This document shows positions 33,209-41,197 of a DNA stretch of 64,000 bases, one piece after another. The notes beneath the pieces were generated by a model that saw nothing but the letters and a program-made list of their open reading frames with translations, did not search any database and was not told the DNA's origin. The stretch covers positions 2,679,992-2,743,991 of the forward strand of contig NZ_CP101322.1 in assembly GCF_024300625.1 (NCBI RefSeq). Reading direction: 5' to 3'. Source of the stretch: Halovivax gelatinilyticus (GTDB taxonomy: Archaea; Halobacteriota; Halobacteria; Halobacteriales; Natrialbaceae). Every line of letters begins with the position of its first letter. Position 1 is the stretch's first letter. The position numbers were made by a program, and so were the translations under genes.

Positions 33209-33460
33209 CTACCGCCGGTACAGTACGGACGTATGTCCCCGCGTCTCGACGAGTTCGGCGTCGACCTGCGCTGCTAACTCGGTTGCGAGTTCGTCGGTCT
33301 CGGTCCGACCGCGGGCCGCTCGCAGAAACTTTACTTTCACCAGGTCATTCGAGCCCAGTTGATCGTCGAGTTCGTCGACGACGGCATCGACGCCGCTCTT
33401 TCCGACCCAGACGGTGACGTCCAGATCGTGAGCGCGAGCCTTGCGTTCGTGTTCGTCCAT
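33209..33460 (-). CDS. CRM-domain (YhbY-type) RNA-binding protein
   Basis: An 83-residue protein starting MDEHERKARAHDLDVTVWVG. The GKSGVDAVVDELDDQL motif and LVKVKFLRAARGRTETDELA, with the closing VETRGHTSVLYRR, give the IF3-C-like CRM fold that binds RNA. It is 62 bases downstream of RNase P component 4 on the same strand, supporting an RNA-processing role. The start is the ATG at 33460; longer in-frame extension is not needed. Confidence 0.85.
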   Translation of the reverse strand: MDEHERKARAHDLDVTVWVGKSGVDAVVDELDDQLGSNDLVKVKFLRAARGRTETDELATELAAQVDAELVETRGHTSVLYRR

Positions 33461-33522
33461 ACGGGCAGGTGGGCGAGGAAGGGTTTGAATCTCCCGCATC
33501 CACGCCACGTCGGTCGGCGAGT

Positions 33523-33798
33523 TCACTCGTAGGGATACCGACTGTGGTGACCACACGAACACGTGATGACGACGTGACCGTCGCGGAGCCTGACCCGGGC
33601 GTTGTCTCCCGGTCGCAGGTACGCGTCGCAGCGATCACACGTGGCGCGGGTGAACGACCGTGGAAGCTCGAGCCGGTTGCGCTCTGCGATCCGTCTGGCC
33701 AGTCTGACGTACTCGCGCGCTCGGTCGTGTTCGTCGTCGGCCGCCGCCGTGCGAGCTAGTTGCTGAAGCCGATCGATTCGCTCCTCGGCGACCGTCAT
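33523..33798 (-). CDS. rnp4: Ribonuclease P protein component 4 (Rpp21)
   Basis: A 91-residue RNase P protein that with Rpp29 helps the RNA subunit cut 5' leaders from pre-tRNA. Two N-terminal helices contain AEERIDRLQQLARTAAADDE and RAREYVRLARRIAERNRLEL. A zinc ribbon follows with Cys pairs in RATCDRCDAYLRPGDNARVR and VVITCSCGHHSRYPYE. It pairs with the CRM protein gene downstream. Confidence 0.93.
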   Translation of the reverse strand: MTVAEERIDRLQQLARTAAADDEHDRAREYVRLARRIAERNRLELPRSFTRATCDRCDAYLRPGDNARVRLRDGHVVITCSCGHHSRYPYE

Positions 33799-34051
33799 TG
33801 TCGCCCATTTCGTCGGCGGTCAAATCGGTGTTTCGTTTACTCTGGGGTAACGGGTGACCTCGGAACTAGCCTGAACGAATAAATCCGAGTCGTATTTACG
33901 CGTCACTGGCGAGGAGTAGTTAGGATTCCGATGATTGACGTCTATGCGTTCGACCACGGCCGTCTTCCCCGAGAGCAGCGTGCGAACGGGATGCCGGTCA
34001 TCAGTCATAATATAGTTATATGAGCGAGTACGCCATTCCCAGTAGAGACTG

Positions 34052-35791
34052 ATGTCTGGTTGGACGGATCGTCGAGTGACCCGAAGAGCCCTCCTCGCCT
34101 CGGGAGCTGTCGGTGGGGTCGTCGCAACGGCGGGATGTGCCGATCTAGTCGATCGTCTCTCGCCTGGAAGCGGCGACCAGCTCTCGGTCACCATCACGGC
34201 CGTTCCGGACGACGATGACCGGCAGGTAAACGGCATTTTCTCGATTCTCGAGTCAAATCTCGAAACCGTCGGAATCGACGTGCGCATCGACCTCCGCTCG
34301 CCGCACGACTTTCACGAGCAGATTCTGATGGAAAACGACTTCGACATGTACGTCGGTCACCACCCGGGCGGACGGTCACTCGATTATCTCTATACGTTGT
34401 GTCACTCCGCGTTCGAGAACGATCCCGGCTGGCAGAATCCGTTCGGGTTGACGAATATCGAACTCGACGAACTGCTCGAATTGCAGCGATCGAGTTCCGG
34501 CTCGACGCGACGGGATGCGATCGACGACATCTTGCACACGCTCCTCGTCGAGAAGCCGTTCGTTCCGATCTGTGAACCGATCGAACACCGGCTGGTTAAT
34601 CCAACGAGCTTCGAGGGCTGGATCCCGGACCGATTGGACGACCAGATCGGCTATCTCGATCTCGAACCGATCGGATCGGATGATCGGTTGACCGGGACCG
34701 TAACGGACGCTCGTCCGACGCAGAACGTCAACCCGCTCGCCGTCTATTACCGACGACGAGGCACGATAACGAGCTTACTGTACGACTCGCTCGGCGTTTA
34801 TCTCGATGGAACGTTGACGCCGTGGCTCGCGAGCGACTGGGACGACGGCGGTGATGCGATAACCGTCGAGCTTCGACCGAACAGTCTCTTTCACGACGGC
34901 GAACCGGTAACCGCAGACGACGTCGTCTTTACGTACGACCTGCTGGCCGACCTCTCGCTCGGCCGAACCGAGTCTCCCGTCCCGTCACCGCGGTTTCGAC
35001 GCGAACGATCGCTCGTCGAATCGATCGAGGAGATCGACGCGTCGACCGTCGAACTGACCCTCGATACGAGGGGGCCCCACGCCCCCGATGCGTTGACGAT
35101 ACCGATACTGCCGAAACACGTCTGGCAACCGGTCGTGACCGACCTGGACGAGGAGACGGCGAGCACGGAAGAGTGGCTCAGAGAGGAACTTCTCTCGGAC
35201 GACGTCGATCGAATCGGGAGCGGTCCGTACCAGTATGAGAGCCGGTCGCAAGGAGATCGGTTGACGCTCACTCGGTTCGACGAGCACTTCACGCTAGATG
35301 AGTGGCTCTCGTTACCGGAACCGACTGTCCCGGAGATTCGAGTGCGAAACGTTTCGAACAGCCCGTTGGCCGTCGATCAGGTGGATGGCGGGTCCGCGGC
35401 GGTGACGATGTACCCGCTCGAATCACACGCCGTCCCCGACCAGTCGGAACTGGAACAGGCGGACCTGATCAGTTCGAACGCCCGGTCGTTCTACCACGTC
35501 GGATTCAACGTCAGGCGGTGGCCGTTTACGAACCCTCACTTCCGTCGAGCGGTGGCGTCGTTGATCGACCGCGAGTGGATCGTCTCGTCCGTCTTCGATG
35601 GCCACGCCGAACCGATCTCCGTCCCTCGGTCGGACCGCATCGAAACCGAATACGATTCGTGGGACGGGTCGGATCCGGAGACGCCGTTCGTCGGCGAGGA
35701 TGGCGAACTCGACGAGTCGGCGGCGCGAGACCTCTTCGCAGATACCGGGTTGCGCTACGACGAATCGGGGCGGCTGGTGGTGAACCACTGA
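34052..35791 (+). CDS. Solute-binding lipoprotein (SBP family 5), circularly permuted, copy A
   Basis: A 579-residue extracytoplasmic binding lipoprotein: Tat motif RRALLAS and lipobox ATAGC with Cys29. Residues 44-205 match what is normally the C-terminal lobe of SBP_bac_5 proteins (SVTITAVPDDDDRQV; DFDMYVGHHPGG; NIELDELLELQRSS; EKPFVPICEP). Residues 213-579 match the normal N-terminal and central parts (GTVTDARPTQNVNPLAVYY; LFHDGEPVTADDVVFTYDLL; FYHVGFNVRRWPFTNPHFRR) and stop where the C-lobe would usually follow. The gene overlaps its PAP2 partner by one base (TGATG). No permease or ATPase gene is nearby. Confidence 0.85.
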   Translation: MSGWTDRRVTRRALLASGAVGGVVATAGCADLVDRLSPGSGDQLSVTITAVPDDDDRQVNGIFSILESNLETVGIDVRIDLRSPHDFHEQILMENDFDMYVGHHPGGRSLDYLYTLCHSAFENDPGWQNPFGLTNIELDELLELQRSSSGSTRRDAIDDILHTLLVEKPFVPICEPIEHRLVNPTSFEGWIPDRLDDQIGYLDLEPIGSDDRLTGTVTDARPTQNVNPLAVYYRRRGTITSLLYDSLGVYLDGTLTPWLASDWDDGGDAITVELRPNSLFHDGEPVTADDVVFTYDLLADLSLGRTESPVPSPRFRRERSLVESIEEIDASTVELTLDTRGPHAPDALTIPILPKHVWQPVVTDLDEETASTEEWLREELLSDDVDRIGSGPYQYESRSQGDRLTLTRFDEHFTLDEWLSLPEPTVPEIRVRNVSNSPLAVDQVDGGSAAVTMYPLESHAVPDQSELEQADLISSNARSFYHVGFNVRRWPFTNPHFRRAVASLIDREWIVSSVFDGHAEPISVPRSDRIETEYDSWDGSDPETPFVGEDGELDESAARDLFADTGLRYDESGRLVVNH

Positions 35792-36675
35792 TGCTCGTTT
35801 CGATCCTCTCACGCGTCGCCGTCGTCGTCGCGTTCCTCCTCGTGATCAGCGTGCCGACGATCATCGGTATCGACCGGCTCAAAGCCGCCCTCATCGATTG
35901 GCGAGCACGCGTCCGCGCGGCCATCCCGATCGCGCTCGTGTTGATTCCGGTGTTGCTCATAAACAGCGTGAGTCGCCAGGAGCTCGTCTCGTTCTCCGAG
36001 GAGTACGGCGTCCGGGCGGGTGGGTGGTTTTACTACGTCGAAGGCGAATTCATCCTCGTTTTCCAGGAGTTCGCGAACACGCCGATCACTCAGTACTTTT
36101 CGTTCATATATATCTACGCGTACGTCTTCTTGCTCGTCTTTCCGGTAATCGCGTACTTCACGCTCAGGGAAACGAAGACCCTCCGAATGCTGCTTGCAGC
36201 CTACACGCTGAACTACACGATCGGTGCGATTCTCTACGTCGCCTTCCACGCGTTCGGTCCGCGACAGTACCTCGGTGTCGAAGTAGAGCACATGCTGTAT
36301 GACTTCCAGCCGGCCTACCAGACGTTGACGAGTGAAGTAAACGACTACACGAACGTCTTTCCGTCGTTACACACGTCACTCTCGGCGACGGTGATGATCT
36401 ACGCGCTCCGGACACGTGCCGAATTTCCGCTGTGGGCACCGATCGCGTCGATCATCGCCGTCAGCGTCTGGATCTCGACGATGTATCTCGGGATCCACTG
36501 GGCGATCGACGTCGTCGCCGGACTCGCTCTGGCGGTCTCGTGCGTCGCGATGGCCGACTGGTTGATCGATAGCGGAACATCCGCTCGTCTCGTCGAACCG
36601 ATCACCGCCCGGGTCGAACCACTCTACGACCGCATCGACGGGGCGGATCCGTCGAGCCGCGATCGTAATTCGTGA
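35791..36675 (+). CDS. PAP2-family membrane phosphatase, copy A
   Basis: A 294-residue membrane protein with about six hydrophobic segments. The catalytic motifs are VFPSLHTSLSATV (PSxH-like) and STMYLGIHWAIDVVAG (SxxYxxxHWxxD), as in the Aur1/PAP2_3 branch of acid phosphatases. The usual first KxxxxxxRP motif is not clear. Its ATG overlaps the stop of the binding-protein gene (TGATG), so the two are translated together. Lipid phosphate or polyprenyl phosphate are plausible substrates by family only. Confidence 0.88.
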   Translation: MLVSILSRVAVVVAFLLVISVPTIIGIDRLKAALIDWRARVRAAIPIALVLIPVLLINSVSRQELVSFSEEYGVRAGGWFYYVEGEFILVFQEFANTPITQYFSFIYIYAYVFLLVFPVIAYFTLRETKTLRMLLAAYTLNYTIGAILYVAFHAFGPRQYLGVEVEHMLYDFQPAYQTLTSEVNDYTNVFPSLHTSLSATVMIYALRTRAEFPLWAPIASIIAVSVWISTMYLGIHWAIDVVAGLALAVSCVAMADWLIDSGTSARLVEPITARVEPLYDRIDGADPSSRDRNS

Positions 36676-36790
36676 GAACGATCCGGACCCGAAAACGGTT
36701 CGTCGACCGACACGAACCGGGTTGCTGTGGGGTTCTCGAAGACAATACTGTTATACGGCGCGTGACGAAGGTTCCATACCTCGGTTCGAA

Positions 36791-38530
36791 ATGAGCACGG
36801 CACCCTCCGATTCGCGCCTCACCCGTCGGTCCCTCCTCGCGTCCGCCGCAGCGGGCGGTCTGGCCGTCACGAGCGGGTGCGTCAGAGAAGTACGAAACAT
36901 CGTCCGACGCTCGCCGGATCACAACCTCTCGCTTTCGATCGCGACGGTTCCCGAAGACGACGATCCGCAGGCGACCCAGCTCGCGATGGCCTTAGAGGAG
37001 TCGCTCCAGACGGTCGGGATCGAAACCGACCTCTCTTTTCTCTCGCGAGTCGAGTTCTATCGAGAGATACTGATCAATCACAACTTCGAGCTCTTCGTCG
37101 GTCGACATCCGGGCGGAGGCGATCCGGATTTTCTCTACGAATCGCTCCACTCTCGGTTCTCCGACGAGTGGGGCTGGCAGAACCCGTTCGGATTTACGAA
37201 CATCACGTTCGACGAGCGACTCGATGAGCAACGGAACGCGAACGGCGAAGATCGGGAACGGGCCGTTAACGACCTCCTACTGGCGATCGGCAACGAACAA
37301 CCGTTCACGCCGATCTGTCGGCCCCGCGAGTTGCGACTCGCGGATACGGACGCGTTCGAGGGCTGGGGCCGCTACGCGTTCTCCAACCGATTGACCTACA
37401 GCGGGCTCTCCGCCGACGAGGACGGTTCCGAACTTCGAGGCCTCGTAACTGACGCGCGGCCGACGCAGAACCTGAACCCGCTGTCCGTCGAGTATCGGGA
37501 TCGACAGCTGTTCGTCGATCTGATTTACGACTCGCTCGCCGCCGTAGACGATGGCGAACGAACGCCGTGGCTGGCTGAATCCTGGGAGTGGGATGGATCG
37601 ACGGCGACCGTCAGGCTGCGATCGACGGACTGGCACGACGGGCAGCCGGTGACGGCAGCCGACGTCGCGTTCACGTTCGAACTGCTCAGGGACACCTCGC
37701 TCGGCGAATCGGACGTACCGTCGCCGGCACCGATCTACCGCGGGCGCGCCACTGCCATCGATGGGGTCGACGTGATCGACGACGACGAGCTGGAACTCAC
37801 CGCCGCCGGCGAAGCCGACGCCGCTGAGAGCGCCTTCACCATCCCGGTCCTGCCGGAACACGTCTGGTCCGACCGGACGGAAGAGGCTTCGATCACCGGA
37901 ATCGACACGGCCGAAGGGACGACGACGGCGGTGGTCACGGACAACGTTCCGCCGATCGGAAGCGGCCTATACGAATTCGCCGATCGATCGGAACGTTCTT
38001 CGATCGAACTGACCAGATTCGACGAACACTTCACGTCGAGGTCGCCGGAACTCGACGCGCCGTCGATCGAGACGCTCCGGTTCGACGTCGTTGCGTCGAC
38101 CGGTGCGGCGGTCGAGGCGATCGCCGACGACCACGCCGATTTCACCGCCACGCCGATCAACCCGCTCGTCGTCGACGACCTGGACGTGCCGGAGAACGCA
38201 TCACTCATCGAGCAATCGTCGGAGGGGATGTACGTCGTCGGTTACAACACGCGAATCTCGCCGCTCGGAAATCCCTACTTCCGACAGATTCTGGCGTCGC
38301 TGATCGACAAAGCACACCTCGCCGAGACCGTCTTCGACGGCTACGCCGACCCCGTCGCATCACCGCTCGGCGAGCCCTGGATTCCCAGTGCGCTCCAGTG
38401 GCGAGGTCGAGATCCGGTAACGCCGTTCGTCGGAACCGACGGCGAGTTGAACGAGGCGGCAGCTCGTCAGTCGTTCGAGGACATCGGCTACCGCTTCGAC
38501 GAGGACGGCAACCTCCTGGTTCGGAACTGA
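36791..38530 (+). CDS. Solute-binding lipoprotein (SBP family 5), circularly permuted, copy B
   Basis: A 579-residue paralogue of the protein at 34052-35791, with Tat motif LTRRSLLAS and lipobox TSGC (Cys30). It has the same permuted order: C-lobe-like first (SLSIATVPEDDDPQ; FELFVGRHPGGGDPDFLY; NITFDERLDEQRNA; QPFTPICRPREL), then LVTDARPTQNLNPLSVEYRD, WHDGQPVTAADVAFTFELL, MYVVGYNTRISPLGNPYFRQ and a C-terminus near FEDIGYRFDEDGNLL. Equal length and shared motifs show tandem duplication with the A module. It is followed after about 180 bases by PAP2 copy B. Confidence 0.85.
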   Translation: MSTAPSDSRLTRRSLLASAAAGGLAVTSGCVREVRNIVRRSPDHNLSLSIATVPEDDDPQATQLAMALEESLQTVGIETDLSFLSRVEFYREILINHNFELFVGRHPGGGDPDFLYESLHSRFSDEWGWQNPFGFTNITFDERLDEQRNANGEDRERAVNDLLLAIGNEQPFTPICRPRELRLADTDAFEGWGRYAFSNRLTYSGLSADEDGSELRGLVTDARPTQNLNPLSVEYRDRQLFVDLIYDSLAAVDDGERTPWLAESWEWDGSTATVRLRSTDWHDGQPVTAADVAFTFELLRDTSLGESDVPSPAPIYRGRATAIDGVDVIDDDELELTAAGEADAAESAFTIPVLPEHVWSDRTEEASITGIDTAEGTTTAVVTDNVPPIGSGLYEFADRSERSSIELTRFDEHFTSRSPELDAPSIETLRFDVVASTGAAVEAIADDHADFTATPINPLVVDDLDVPENASLIEQSSEGMYVVGYNTRISPLGNPYFRQILASLIDKAHLAETVFDGYADPVASPLGEPWIPSALQWRGRDPVTPFVGTDGELNEAAARQSFEDIGYRFDEDGNLLVRN

Positions 38531-38713
38531 CGACGCGACCGAAATCGACGATCAACTGGCGACAATCGTCGATGTCGACGCGAAGACCCAGCGCGTGCGA
38601 GCCGGCCGAACACTGAATATCGCACCCGTCGTATTCGATACGAATTCGCGAGCGAGCAGATCGTGCTGGCGATCCGCTCGTCGAAACTCCGAATCACGAC
38701 AGGTGTCGCCTCG

Positions 38714-39550
38714 ATGTTACTACCCGTCCTCGTTCAGCTCGTGGCCGTACTCGCGGCGATGATCGCGATCGCTGCAGCGGTGTTTTTCGATCGGCGGCGG
38801 CTGGTTCAGACCAGAGCGGAGCTCCCGGCGCGCCTTCGCGTCGTCGCGCCGGTGACGGTCGTGTTGATCGCGGTGCTCCTCCTGAATAGCATCATCCGCC
38901 AGTACATTCCGGACATCTCCTGGATTATCGGCTGGGAACTCACCTGGACGTTTTATCAGCTCGAGGGCGACTTCATCGGCTGGATTCAGTCGTTTCAGAC
39001 GCCGATCGCGACGGCGTTCTTTTCGTTCGTCTACGTCTACGGCTACGCGTTCTTGCTCGTCTTTCCGGTGATCGCCTACCTGTTTCTCTCCGATACTCGG
39101 CCGTTGCGGCTCCTGTTGACCGCGTACACGCTAAACTATACGATCGGACCGCTGCTCTACGTCTTTTTCATCGTGTACGGACCGCGAAACTTCGCGGCAG
39201 AGGGGCTACTCTACGACGTTTATCCGCGGTATCAACACCTCACCGGTGAGATAAACCGAAACACGAACGTCTTTCCGTCGCTACACGTCTCGCTCGCGGT
39301 CACCGTCGCGGCGATCGCCTACTCGACCAGGGATACGTATCGAGGCTGGTACTACCTCGCCGCCTTCGGCGCGCTCAGCGTCTCCGTCTCGACGATGTAT
39401 CTCGGCATCCACTGGGCGATCGACGTCGTCGGCGGTCTCGGCCTGGCGGCCGTGAGCGTCTACCTCGCCCACCTGTTCGTCGGTCGGTGGTCAGTGACCG
39501 AACGGATTTGGGTGCTGTATCGTCGGTTCGTCGAACCGACCATCCGCTAA
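38714..39550 (+). CDS. PAP2-family membrane phosphatase, copy B
   Basis: A 278-residue paralogue of 35791-36675. It has the same membrane layout and active-site motifs VFPSLHVSLAVTV and STMYLGIHWAIDVVGG, plus shared VYVYGYAFLLVFPVIAYLFL and YTLNYTIGPLLYV. I start it at the ATG at 38714 (MLLPVLVQL) to match copy A; an in-frame GTG upstream at 38663 is possible. Unlike copy A it is not overlapped with its binding-protein gene. Confidence 0.87.
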   Translation: MLLPVLVQLVAVLAAMIAIAAAVFFDRRRLVQTRAELPARLRVVAPVTVVLIAVLLLNSIIRQYIPDISWIIGWELTWTFYQLEGDFIGWIQSFQTPIATAFFSFVYVYGYAFLLVFPVIAYLFLSDTRPLRLLLTAYTLNYTIGPLLYVFFIVYGPRNFAAEGLLYDVYPRYQHLTGEINRNTNVFPSLHVSLAVTVAAIAYSTRDTYRGWYYLAAFGALSVSVSTMYLGIHWAIDVVGGLGLAAVSVYLAHLFVGRWSVTERIWVLYRRFVEPTIR

Positions 39551-39581
39551 CACGTATCGATCTCGACAACCGAGCGTCGGG

Positions 39582-39911
39582 CTACTCGTCTTCGAGTGCG
39601 TCTGCGATCCGCTGAAGCTGTCGCGTGGCGTCTCTGACTTCGTCCCGGAGCTGACGGACTTCCCGGGCAAGTTCCTCGTTTCCGCCTCCCGACGCGGCTC
39701 CCGGTCCGCCGCCCATCATGCCGCCCATCATCTGTGCGAACGGATTTCCGCCGCCCATCCCGCCGCCCATTCCGGGGCCGCCACCGCCGAACGGGTCGCC
39801 GCCTTCTTCTCCTTCCTCGGCTCGCTTCTCGCGGATCTCTTCGACGCGTTCTCTGAACGACTTCTCCTCGCCGTCTTCGCCCGCGTCGTCGTCGGCTGGC
39901 TCTTCAGGCAT
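39582..39911 (-). CDS. Conserved small protein with Gly/Met-rich middle
   Basis: From the ATG at 39911 the product is 109 residues: acidic start (MPEEPADDDAGEDGEEKSFR), a charged helix, a Gly/Met stretch (GGGMGGGNPFAQMMGGMMGG), and a C-terminal coiled coil (LAREVRQLRDEVRDATRQLQ). No function is known. It ends next to the convergent PAP2 gene. Confidence 0.6.
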   Translation of the reverse strand: MPEEPADDDAGEDGEEKSFRERVEEIREKRAEEGEEGGDPFGGGGPGMGGGMGGGNPFAQMMGGMMGGGPGAASGGGNEELAREVRQLRDEVRDATRQLQRIADALEDE

Positions 39912-39972
39912 GTCTTCGTCTTCACCTGCGGTTCGGAAAAGGGTTGTTATGGCGGCCGATCGATAGGTGCGC

Positions 39973-40740
39973 TCACTCGCTCGTGCCGAACGAATCGAGC
40001 GACGTTTGGAGCCGTTTCTCCGACCCATCGGAATCTGTGTGGTAGCCGACCAGGTCGCGCATGTCGACCGCGTAGTTCGTTCCACCCTGTTCGACGACGA
40101 GCACGCGCCCTTTGATCCCGACGACCGCTCCAGAGGCGATCGTCTCGCGAACCGGTCGCACCTCGAGGTCGAATCCGTAGTCGAAGCGATGCTGCGCGAT
40201 CACGTCGAACGGTTCTAGCGCGTCCGTCCAGATCGCCTCGTCGACCGTCTCCGCGAGACCGGCGACCTTCCGATCGGTGCCGACGCGGTCGGTGTGCCGG
40301 GTCGCGATTTCGGCTTCGAGTTCGCGGGCGATTCGGCCGTTCGACACCGTGTGAACGTGTGCGCCACGGTCGGCACCCTGCTCGCGTAGACGGGTTTCGA
40401 GTCGTTCGAGTCGCGTTACACCGACTTTGACGACGTCGGGGGCGAATCCGGCCAGGTAGACGGCGTGATCGTCGAAACAGTCCATCTCGTCTTTGAGGCA
40501 GGTACCCGTACAGCGCGCACAGACCCACGTCGAGGCGTGGTCGTCGCAGTAGGGGACGCTCGTCCGGTCGCAGGCGACGTGGCGTCCCGTTTCGCGATCG
40601 ACGACGCCGGCACACCGTCGCGCTCCGAGGGCGTACTCGAGCCGGTCGCCCGGTTCGATCGCGCGACGGCTGACCGAGCCGTCGTCGCTCTCGAGTAACG
40701 CGGGCCCGCGTGCCGTCGGTTCGTACCCAACCAGTTGCAC
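39973..40740 (-). CDS. DUF2797 family protein
   Basis: A 255-residue protein from a GTG at 40740 (VQLVGYEPTARGPALLESDD). A zinc-binding region has RRCAGVVDRETGRHVACDRT, YCDDHASTWVCARCTGTCLK, followed by VYLAGFAPDVVKVGVTRLER, a GIY-YIG-like strand-helix. The C-terminus carries EAIWTDALEPFDVIAQHRFD. The longer in-frame ATG start at 40998 lies antisense to the BsuPI-domain gene and is rejected. Function is unknown; nuclease relation is suggested by the GIY-YIG resemblance only. Confidence 0.75.
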   Translation of the reverse strand: MQLVGYEPTARGPALLESDDGSVSRRAIEPGDRLEYALGARRCAGVVDRETGRHVACDRTSVPYCDDHASTWVCARCTGTCLKDEMDCFDDHAVYLAGFAPDVVKVGVTRLERLETRLREQGADRGAHVHTVSNGRIARELEAEIATRHTDRVGTDRKVAGLAETVDEAIWTDALEPFDVIAQHRFDYGFDLEVRPVRETIASGAVVGIKGRVLVVEQGGTNYAVDMRDLVGYHTDSDGSEKRLQTSLDSFGTSE

Positions 40741-40864
40741 GCGAAGACGTTGGGCGAGCGCAACGAAAGGTGTGGCGTTGTGTATCCGTTTCGTCGGATC
40801 GACGGCCGCCGTTGCACGGTCGTCGGGGGAAAGAATTAGGTTACGTTCGAACGAATCGACGCGT

Positions 40865-41197
40865 ATGTCACTCACCGGGTCGCTCGAAACGGCGCGCGAC
40901 GAAGACGGGATCACGTTCACGCTGGTCGTCACGAACGAGGGAGACGAACCGATCACCGCGCGGTTTTCGAACGGCTGTCGCGTCGACGTCGCCGTCACCG
41001 ACGACGGCGGCGAGATCTGGCGCTACACCGACGGGCGAATGTTTACGCAGGTGCTCGGCGAGGAGACGTTCGAACCGGGCGAATCGCGACGGTTCGACGT
41101 CCAGTGGCGTGACCCAGAGCCGGGGTCTTACGCGGCCGACGGTGAACTGACGGCCCAGAACCGGACCTGCACGGCGACGACCGAGTTTTCCGTCTGA
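40865..41197 (+). CDS. BsuPI-domain protein
   Basis: A 110-residue protein that is one BsuPI-like immunoglobulin-fold domain: ITFTLVVTNEGDEPITARFS, GCRVDVAVTDDGGEIWRY, FTQVLGEETFEPGESRRFDV and PGSYAADGELTAQNRTC. In Bacillus the founding member inhibits an intracellular protease; that activity is not assured here. It has no signal peptide. It is divergent from the DUF2797 gene. Confidence 0.82.
   Translation: MSLTGSLETARDEDGITFTLVVTNEGDEPITARFSNGCRVDVAVTDDGGEIWRYTDGRMFTQVLGEETFEPGESRRFDVQWRDPEPGSYAADGELTAQNRTCTATTEFSV

Follow-up and report, generated by a model that had tools for sequence, protein, structure and literature searches.

Substrate-binding proteins (SBPs) of the very large SBP_bac_5 family, among them the peptide and nickel binders DppA, OppA, AppA and NikA, belong to cluster C of the SBP classification. 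In the related protein AliD, domains I and II form lobe 1, and domain III (residues 297-582) forms lobe 2 (PMC11192437). A natural SBP with a permuted chain has been described in cluster B: this is TpMglB-2 (Tp0684), a glucose-binding protein of Treponema pallidum that undergoes a conformational change and for which a 'cluster Bc' was proposed (PMC4990184). It was the single natural precedent that we found, and it comes from another SBP cluster than the one considered here; no publication on permuted SBP_bac_5 proteins was found in a search that covered a minority of the papers in subscription journals. In databases, permuted members of the family (whose proteins are called SBP5s below) are labelled as ordinary substrate-binding proteins.

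The locus and the order of the fold pieces

The DNA analysed, hereafter the window, is a stretch of 64,000 nucleotides (positions 2679992-2743991) of the 3.70 Mb chromosome of the haloarchaeon Halovivax gelatinilyticus. It carries two SBP genes, A and B, whose products are both lipoproteins of 579 residues and are 42% identical. A preliminary description had reported the two open reading frames on the + strand, and both are present as described; it had left out a PAP2 gene that lies between them, inside the span that it covered. The features, in window coordinates, are as follows.

34052..35791, + strand: protein A, SBP_bac_5 lipoprotein of 579 aa, circularly permuted (ORF; PF00496, 149.9 bits; permuted order)
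34052..34138, + strand: A residues 1-29, twin-arginine signal peptide with lipobox Cys29 (from sequence)
34178..34633, + strand: A residues 43-194, end-of-fold segment placed first, i.e. second half of domain III and last strand (hhalign to DppA 373-523)
34634..34672, + strand: A residues 195-207, linker that joins the former C- and N-termini (lies between the mapped pieces)
34673..35779, + strand: A residues 208-576, start-of-fold segment placed last, i.e. domains I and II and first part of domain III (hhalign to DppA 26-374; structure match to 1dpp 1-347)
35791..36675, + strand: PAP2_3 gene of the membrane phosphatase/transferase type, after A (PF14378, 2.2e-16; its ATG overlaps the stop codon of A, TGATG)
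36791..38530, + strand: protein B, SBP_bac_5 lipoprotein of 579 aa from the ATG, circularly permuted (ORF; PF00496, 129.5 bits; permuted order)
36791..36880, + strand: B residues 1-30, twin-arginine signal peptide with lipobox Cys30 (from sequence)
36947..37327, + strand: B residues 53-179, end-of-fold segment placed first (profile positions 379-506)
37412..38518, + strand: B residues 208-576, start-of-fold segment placed last (profile positions 34-378)
38663..39550, + strand: second PAP2_3 gene, partner of B (PF14378, 2.9e-15; alternative ATG at 38714)

The frame of B could be extended upstream to a TTG start at 36722. The PF00496 scores of A and B are to be compared with a curated cut-off of 32.4 bits, and those of the two PAP2 genes (60.7 and 57 bits for PF14378) with a cut-off of 27 bits; SBP_bac_5 is the sole Pfam family found in A and B. 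Positions 33209-41197 of the window are syntenic with a plasmid of Natronorubrum bangense, the common genes being ribonuclease P component 4, YhbY, SBP-PAP2-SBP-PAP2, a hypothetical gene and DUF2797.

The order of the fold pieces was read with a profile built from 12 SBP5s of normal order (nine from the H. gelatinilyticus genome, plus DppA, OppA and NikA of Escherichia coli), which gives one continuous match in each of its 12 source proteins. In A the match is split, with profile positions 374-512 at residues 45-183 followed by positions 44-377 at residues 216-575; in B, positions 379-506 at residues 53-179 are followed by positions 34-378 at residues 208-576. Two other proteins of the same genome, L010 and L013, also have the end piece first and the start piece last by the same profile. 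Against single sequences the first piece scores weakly (4.3 and 9.8 bits). With family profiles on both sides, the first piece of A was placed by hhalign on DppA 373-524 with an E-value of 7e-20 and a probability of 99.2%, the next placement having an E-value of 0.55. In that comparison, A 43-194 aligns with DppA 373-523 and A 208-576 with DppA 26-374; together, the two pieces make up DppA 26-523 (of 535), nothing being missing or present twice. Two pieces that abut without loss are the signature of a circular permutation. All parts of the SBP_bac_5 fold are thus present in A and B, and their order along the chain departs from the canonical one. Judged from their sequences, A and B are genuine natural circular permutants of the cluster C fold, in which the original termini have been joined to each other and the newly created start of the chain carries the export signal.

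A circular permutation is what the preliminary description had proposed, on the ground that the segment right after the lipobox corresponds to the end of a normal SBP5, and this reading is borne out by hhalign for A and by the profile split for both proteins. Residues 44-205, far from being an unrelated domain, correspond by homology to the last part of the fold, and no full normal-order fold exists outside them, the stretch from 208 to 579 covering only DppA 26-374. That the permutation preceded the local duplication also holds, as the same tandem is found in synteny in N. bangense and the whole clade is permuted. An assembly artefact is ruled out by the occurrence of the same order in many independent genomes.

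The AlphaFold models of A (pLDDT 83.7, pTM 0.84) and of L058, a Halomonas relative (pLDDT 88.0, pTM 0.83), are of good confidence along most of the mature chain. In both, the second part resembles the first two thirds of DppA-, AppA- and NikA-type structures: A 203-579 aligns with AppA 18-357 (1xoc; Z 21.9, 329 residues, 3.0 Å) and A 211-579 with DppA 1-347 (1dpp; Z 20.3), and the best structural match of L058 is AppA (Z 25.8). Foldseek and VIA, which align in chain order, gave no alignment for the first part of either model; this is what a permuted chain should produce. The structural and Pfam matches listed all belong to SBP_bac_5 or cluster C, and no solved structure with the permuted order was among the 60 best matches listed. 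Profile homology and the confident model together point to the equivalence of the first 205 residues with the end of the fold, and the fold and its two-lobed cleft are probably retained in A and B.

The break corresponds to position 373/374 of the DppA precursor (about 358 in mature OppA), after the helix with the AAR..L motif. Domain III of OppA spans residues 271-486 or so, which places the OppA/DppA cut inside it. The chain had been said to end exactly where the C-lobe would normally follow, which is slightly off: the break lies within domain III, i.e. lobe 2. That the lipid anchor had been relocated is supported and can be refined by the mapping, which would put it on lobe 2 instead of lobe 1. 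Anchoring was also considered as a general cause of permutation and rejected, because most bacterial permuted relatives examined have no lipobox: L058, L059, L060, L061, L063 and L071 carry signal peptides without a recognised one and look like soluble periplasmic proteins.

Spread and independent origins of the permutation

Four of the 13 SBP5s of the H. gelatinilyticus genome are permuted. Among haloarchaeal genomes, and in a set with one genome for each species, an automatic test called at least 52 ORF entries permuted; a few of these are one gene present in two loci, and the bacterial spread that they describe is a lower bound. Permuted SBP5s occur in haloarchaea and in Halomonas, Pararhodobacter, Aliihoeflea, Rhodophyticola, Roseibium and others, and one was also found in an archaeal genome of the window's phylum but outside its class. 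Among plasmids, 44 records have one place covering at least 80% of a permuted query, the carriers including Nitratireductor, Ketogulonicigenium, Roseomonas, Microvirga and Neorhizobium; in the plasmid matches listed, the annotated genes are named only 'ABC transporter substrate-binding protein'. The chain ends at a nearly identical place in almost all permuted proteins. The permutation is widespread, being present in both haloarchaea and Pseudomonadota, and the operons concerned are for the most part ordinary SBP-permease-ATPase ones. As to the clade of A and B, full-length colinear matches were found in 126 of the 194 haloarchaeal genomes sampled (48 of 65 genera), PF00496 is matched by 17 of 17 members, and many residues, including GWQNP, are invariant.

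In a tree built after the sequences had been re-ordered, all permuted proteins but one (46 of 47) group in a single clade (SH-aLRT 91), which divides into an importer-linked subclade (support 98) and the A/B subclade (support 100). The remaining protein, L013, lies outside, and its own relatives show both orders. A further case is provided by L151 and L152, which are permuted, and L161, which is of normal order, all from one genus. The two pieces of L151 and L161 are 66% and 67% identical and their signal peptides 67%, so that the pair displays a clean permutation, with a break in L151 about one helix earlier. L151/L152 are sister to L161 (support 100/99) and nested in normal-order proteins. 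AU tests were run on a set of 29 sequences. A single clade of all permuted proteins was rejected (p 1e-99), as were the union of L151/L152 with the ancient clade (p 2e-6) and that of L151/L152 with L013, L143 and L144 (p 1e-32); the last three together were acceptable (p 0.56). Long branches are present in these data, and the tests share the limits of the tree model. Tree placement and AU tests support at least three independent origins of the permutation. Three such events, one of them recent (66-67% identity, matching operons), would amount to a natural experiment on chain order and tether position in a Venus-flytrap protein, and L151, L152 and L161, as a recent natural permutation, are suited to direct comparison.

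Two other accounts of these observations were weighed. A single event, later spread by transfer or locally reverted, would explain why all the breaks fall in the same short region and why one large clade gathers nearly all permuted proteins on the first tree, but it is very unlikely in view of the three AU rejections, of the sister relationship of L151/L152 to a normal-order protein and of the displaced break of L151. That there is no permutation at all, A and B being truncated SBP folds behind an unrelated domain, could be argued from the best single Pfam stretch, which covers only residues 255-568 of A (profile positions 2-279) and 258-568 of B (3-279), and from the sequential structure alignment, limited to residues 203-579; this we consider negligible, since A 43-194 has its own hhalign match in DppA 373-523 (probability 98.8-99.2%) and since the L151/L161 relatives show the exchange directly at 66-67% identity.

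Gene neighbourhoods and the proposed PAP2 partner

In the importer-linked clade, the permuted SBP gene comes first in SBP-permease-permease-ATPase operons, and two further independent permutants also stand first in complete operons of this type. L010 and L013 head complete five-gene importer operons (L015, 2754-8856; L016, 7177-13864). The operon of L151 matches that of L161, its sister of normal order in the same genus, from which it is very likely that the permuted proteins still act as importer receptors. Genes for a creatininase, an M20 peptidase or a D-aminoacylase are found near some of the importer-linked operons.

The neighbourhood of the A/B clade is of another kind. A PAP2_3 gene comes directly next in 38 of 46 genes, and ABC genes are found downstream of none of the 46, whereas in the importer-linked sister clade PAP2 is next in none of 18 cases and ABC genes are present in 15 of 18. 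A permease and an ATPase in the operon, the mark of an ABC importer, are thus found in the sister clade and are lacking for A and B. Seven of the eight A/B-clade genes without PAP2 next occupy the second SBP position in a Natrinema-like SBP-PAP2-SBP tandem; L043 has no PAP2 gene directly downstream. The frequency of the PAP2 pairing, together with the lack of ABC genes, is suggestive of selection on the link itself. No BPD_transp_1 permease was found in the 64-kb window, the nearest lying more than 100 kb away.

Some variants of the pair were observed. In L136, L138, L139, L140 and L141, it lies beside an arylsulfotransferase gene and a gene annotated as hypothetical or as glycosyltransferase family 39, and in some of these genomes glmM or glmS is close to it. 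In L141 (6568-7681, Salinigranum rubrum) the annotation splits the permuted SBP, which looks broken, into two fragments, the PAP2 gene being annotated as normal.

We consider the following account, taken as a whole, quite probable: A and B are cluster C permutants of a branch that has no importer pump and would have been re-used as the partner of a PAP2-type enzyme. By the likeliest mechanism for such a former importer subunit working without a pump, the permuted SBP would capture a solute or lipid head group outside the cytoplasm, on the membrane's outer face, and the captured ligand would be presented to, or sensed for, the PAP2-type phosphatase/transferase. Taken alone, this capture step and what follows it have about an even chance of being right, and contact between the SBP and the PAP2 protein is suggested by gene order only. 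We are evenly divided over a broader proposition: that cluster C SBPs permute repeatedly at one permissive place in domain III while keeping import, and that one ancient event gave rise to a widespread ABC-free haloarchaeal module made of a lobe-2-anchored SBP and a PAP2-type enzyme. Present in about two thirds of the sampled haloarchaeal genomes, the pair suggests a role in the envelope; our search found no study of this role, and the pair is possibly a new surface module.

Against re-use by the PAP2-type enzyme, it could be held that A and B, though permuted, are orphan SBPs which dock on Dpp/Opp-type permeases encoded elsewhere, PAP2 being in the operon for other reasons. The genome does contain 33 BPD_transp_1 matches and the sister permuted clade carries its importer in the operon, but a remote importer is somewhat unlikely given the absence of ABC genes downstream of all 46 clade members and the 38 directly adjacent PAP2 genes. 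Loss of the ABC link would also suit proteins that have ceased to bind a small ligand and whose permuted fold now serves the PAP2 enzyme as a partner in structure or assembly. The ligand residues R383 and D436 of DppA are not conserved in A, which goes in the same direction, but these positions are variable among normal SBP5s too, and many residues of the clade, among them GWQNP, are invariant; such a purely structural role appears improbable. Loss or charge reversal at R383 and D436 was dropped as a functional clue, these positions varying in normal-order proteins.

Comparison with known systems

A and B resemble DppA, OppA, AppA and NikA in having homologous pieces over DppA 26-523 and in belonging to the same Pfam family, and their sister clade is found in the same type of operon. 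They differ in that the two pieces are exchanged, the new N-terminus and its anchor would lie in lobe 2, and the A/B clade has no ABC genes downstream. The PAP2 neighbours belong, by Pfam score, to the PAP2_3 (PF14378) phosphatases and inositol phosphorylceramide synthase-like transferases and retain the PSLH and GIHW...D motifs; what sets them apart from that family is their conserved pairing with a permuted SBP.

TpMglB-2 is, like A and B, a natural, lipid-anchored and circularly permuted SBP, and it retains ligand binding and the conformational change (PMC4990184). A and B share with it the permuted topology and, as predicted, an intact fold. TpMglB-2 has another cut site than A and B and, unlike them, ABC transporter genes in its cluster; its fold is the sugar-binding one of cluster B (PMC4990184).
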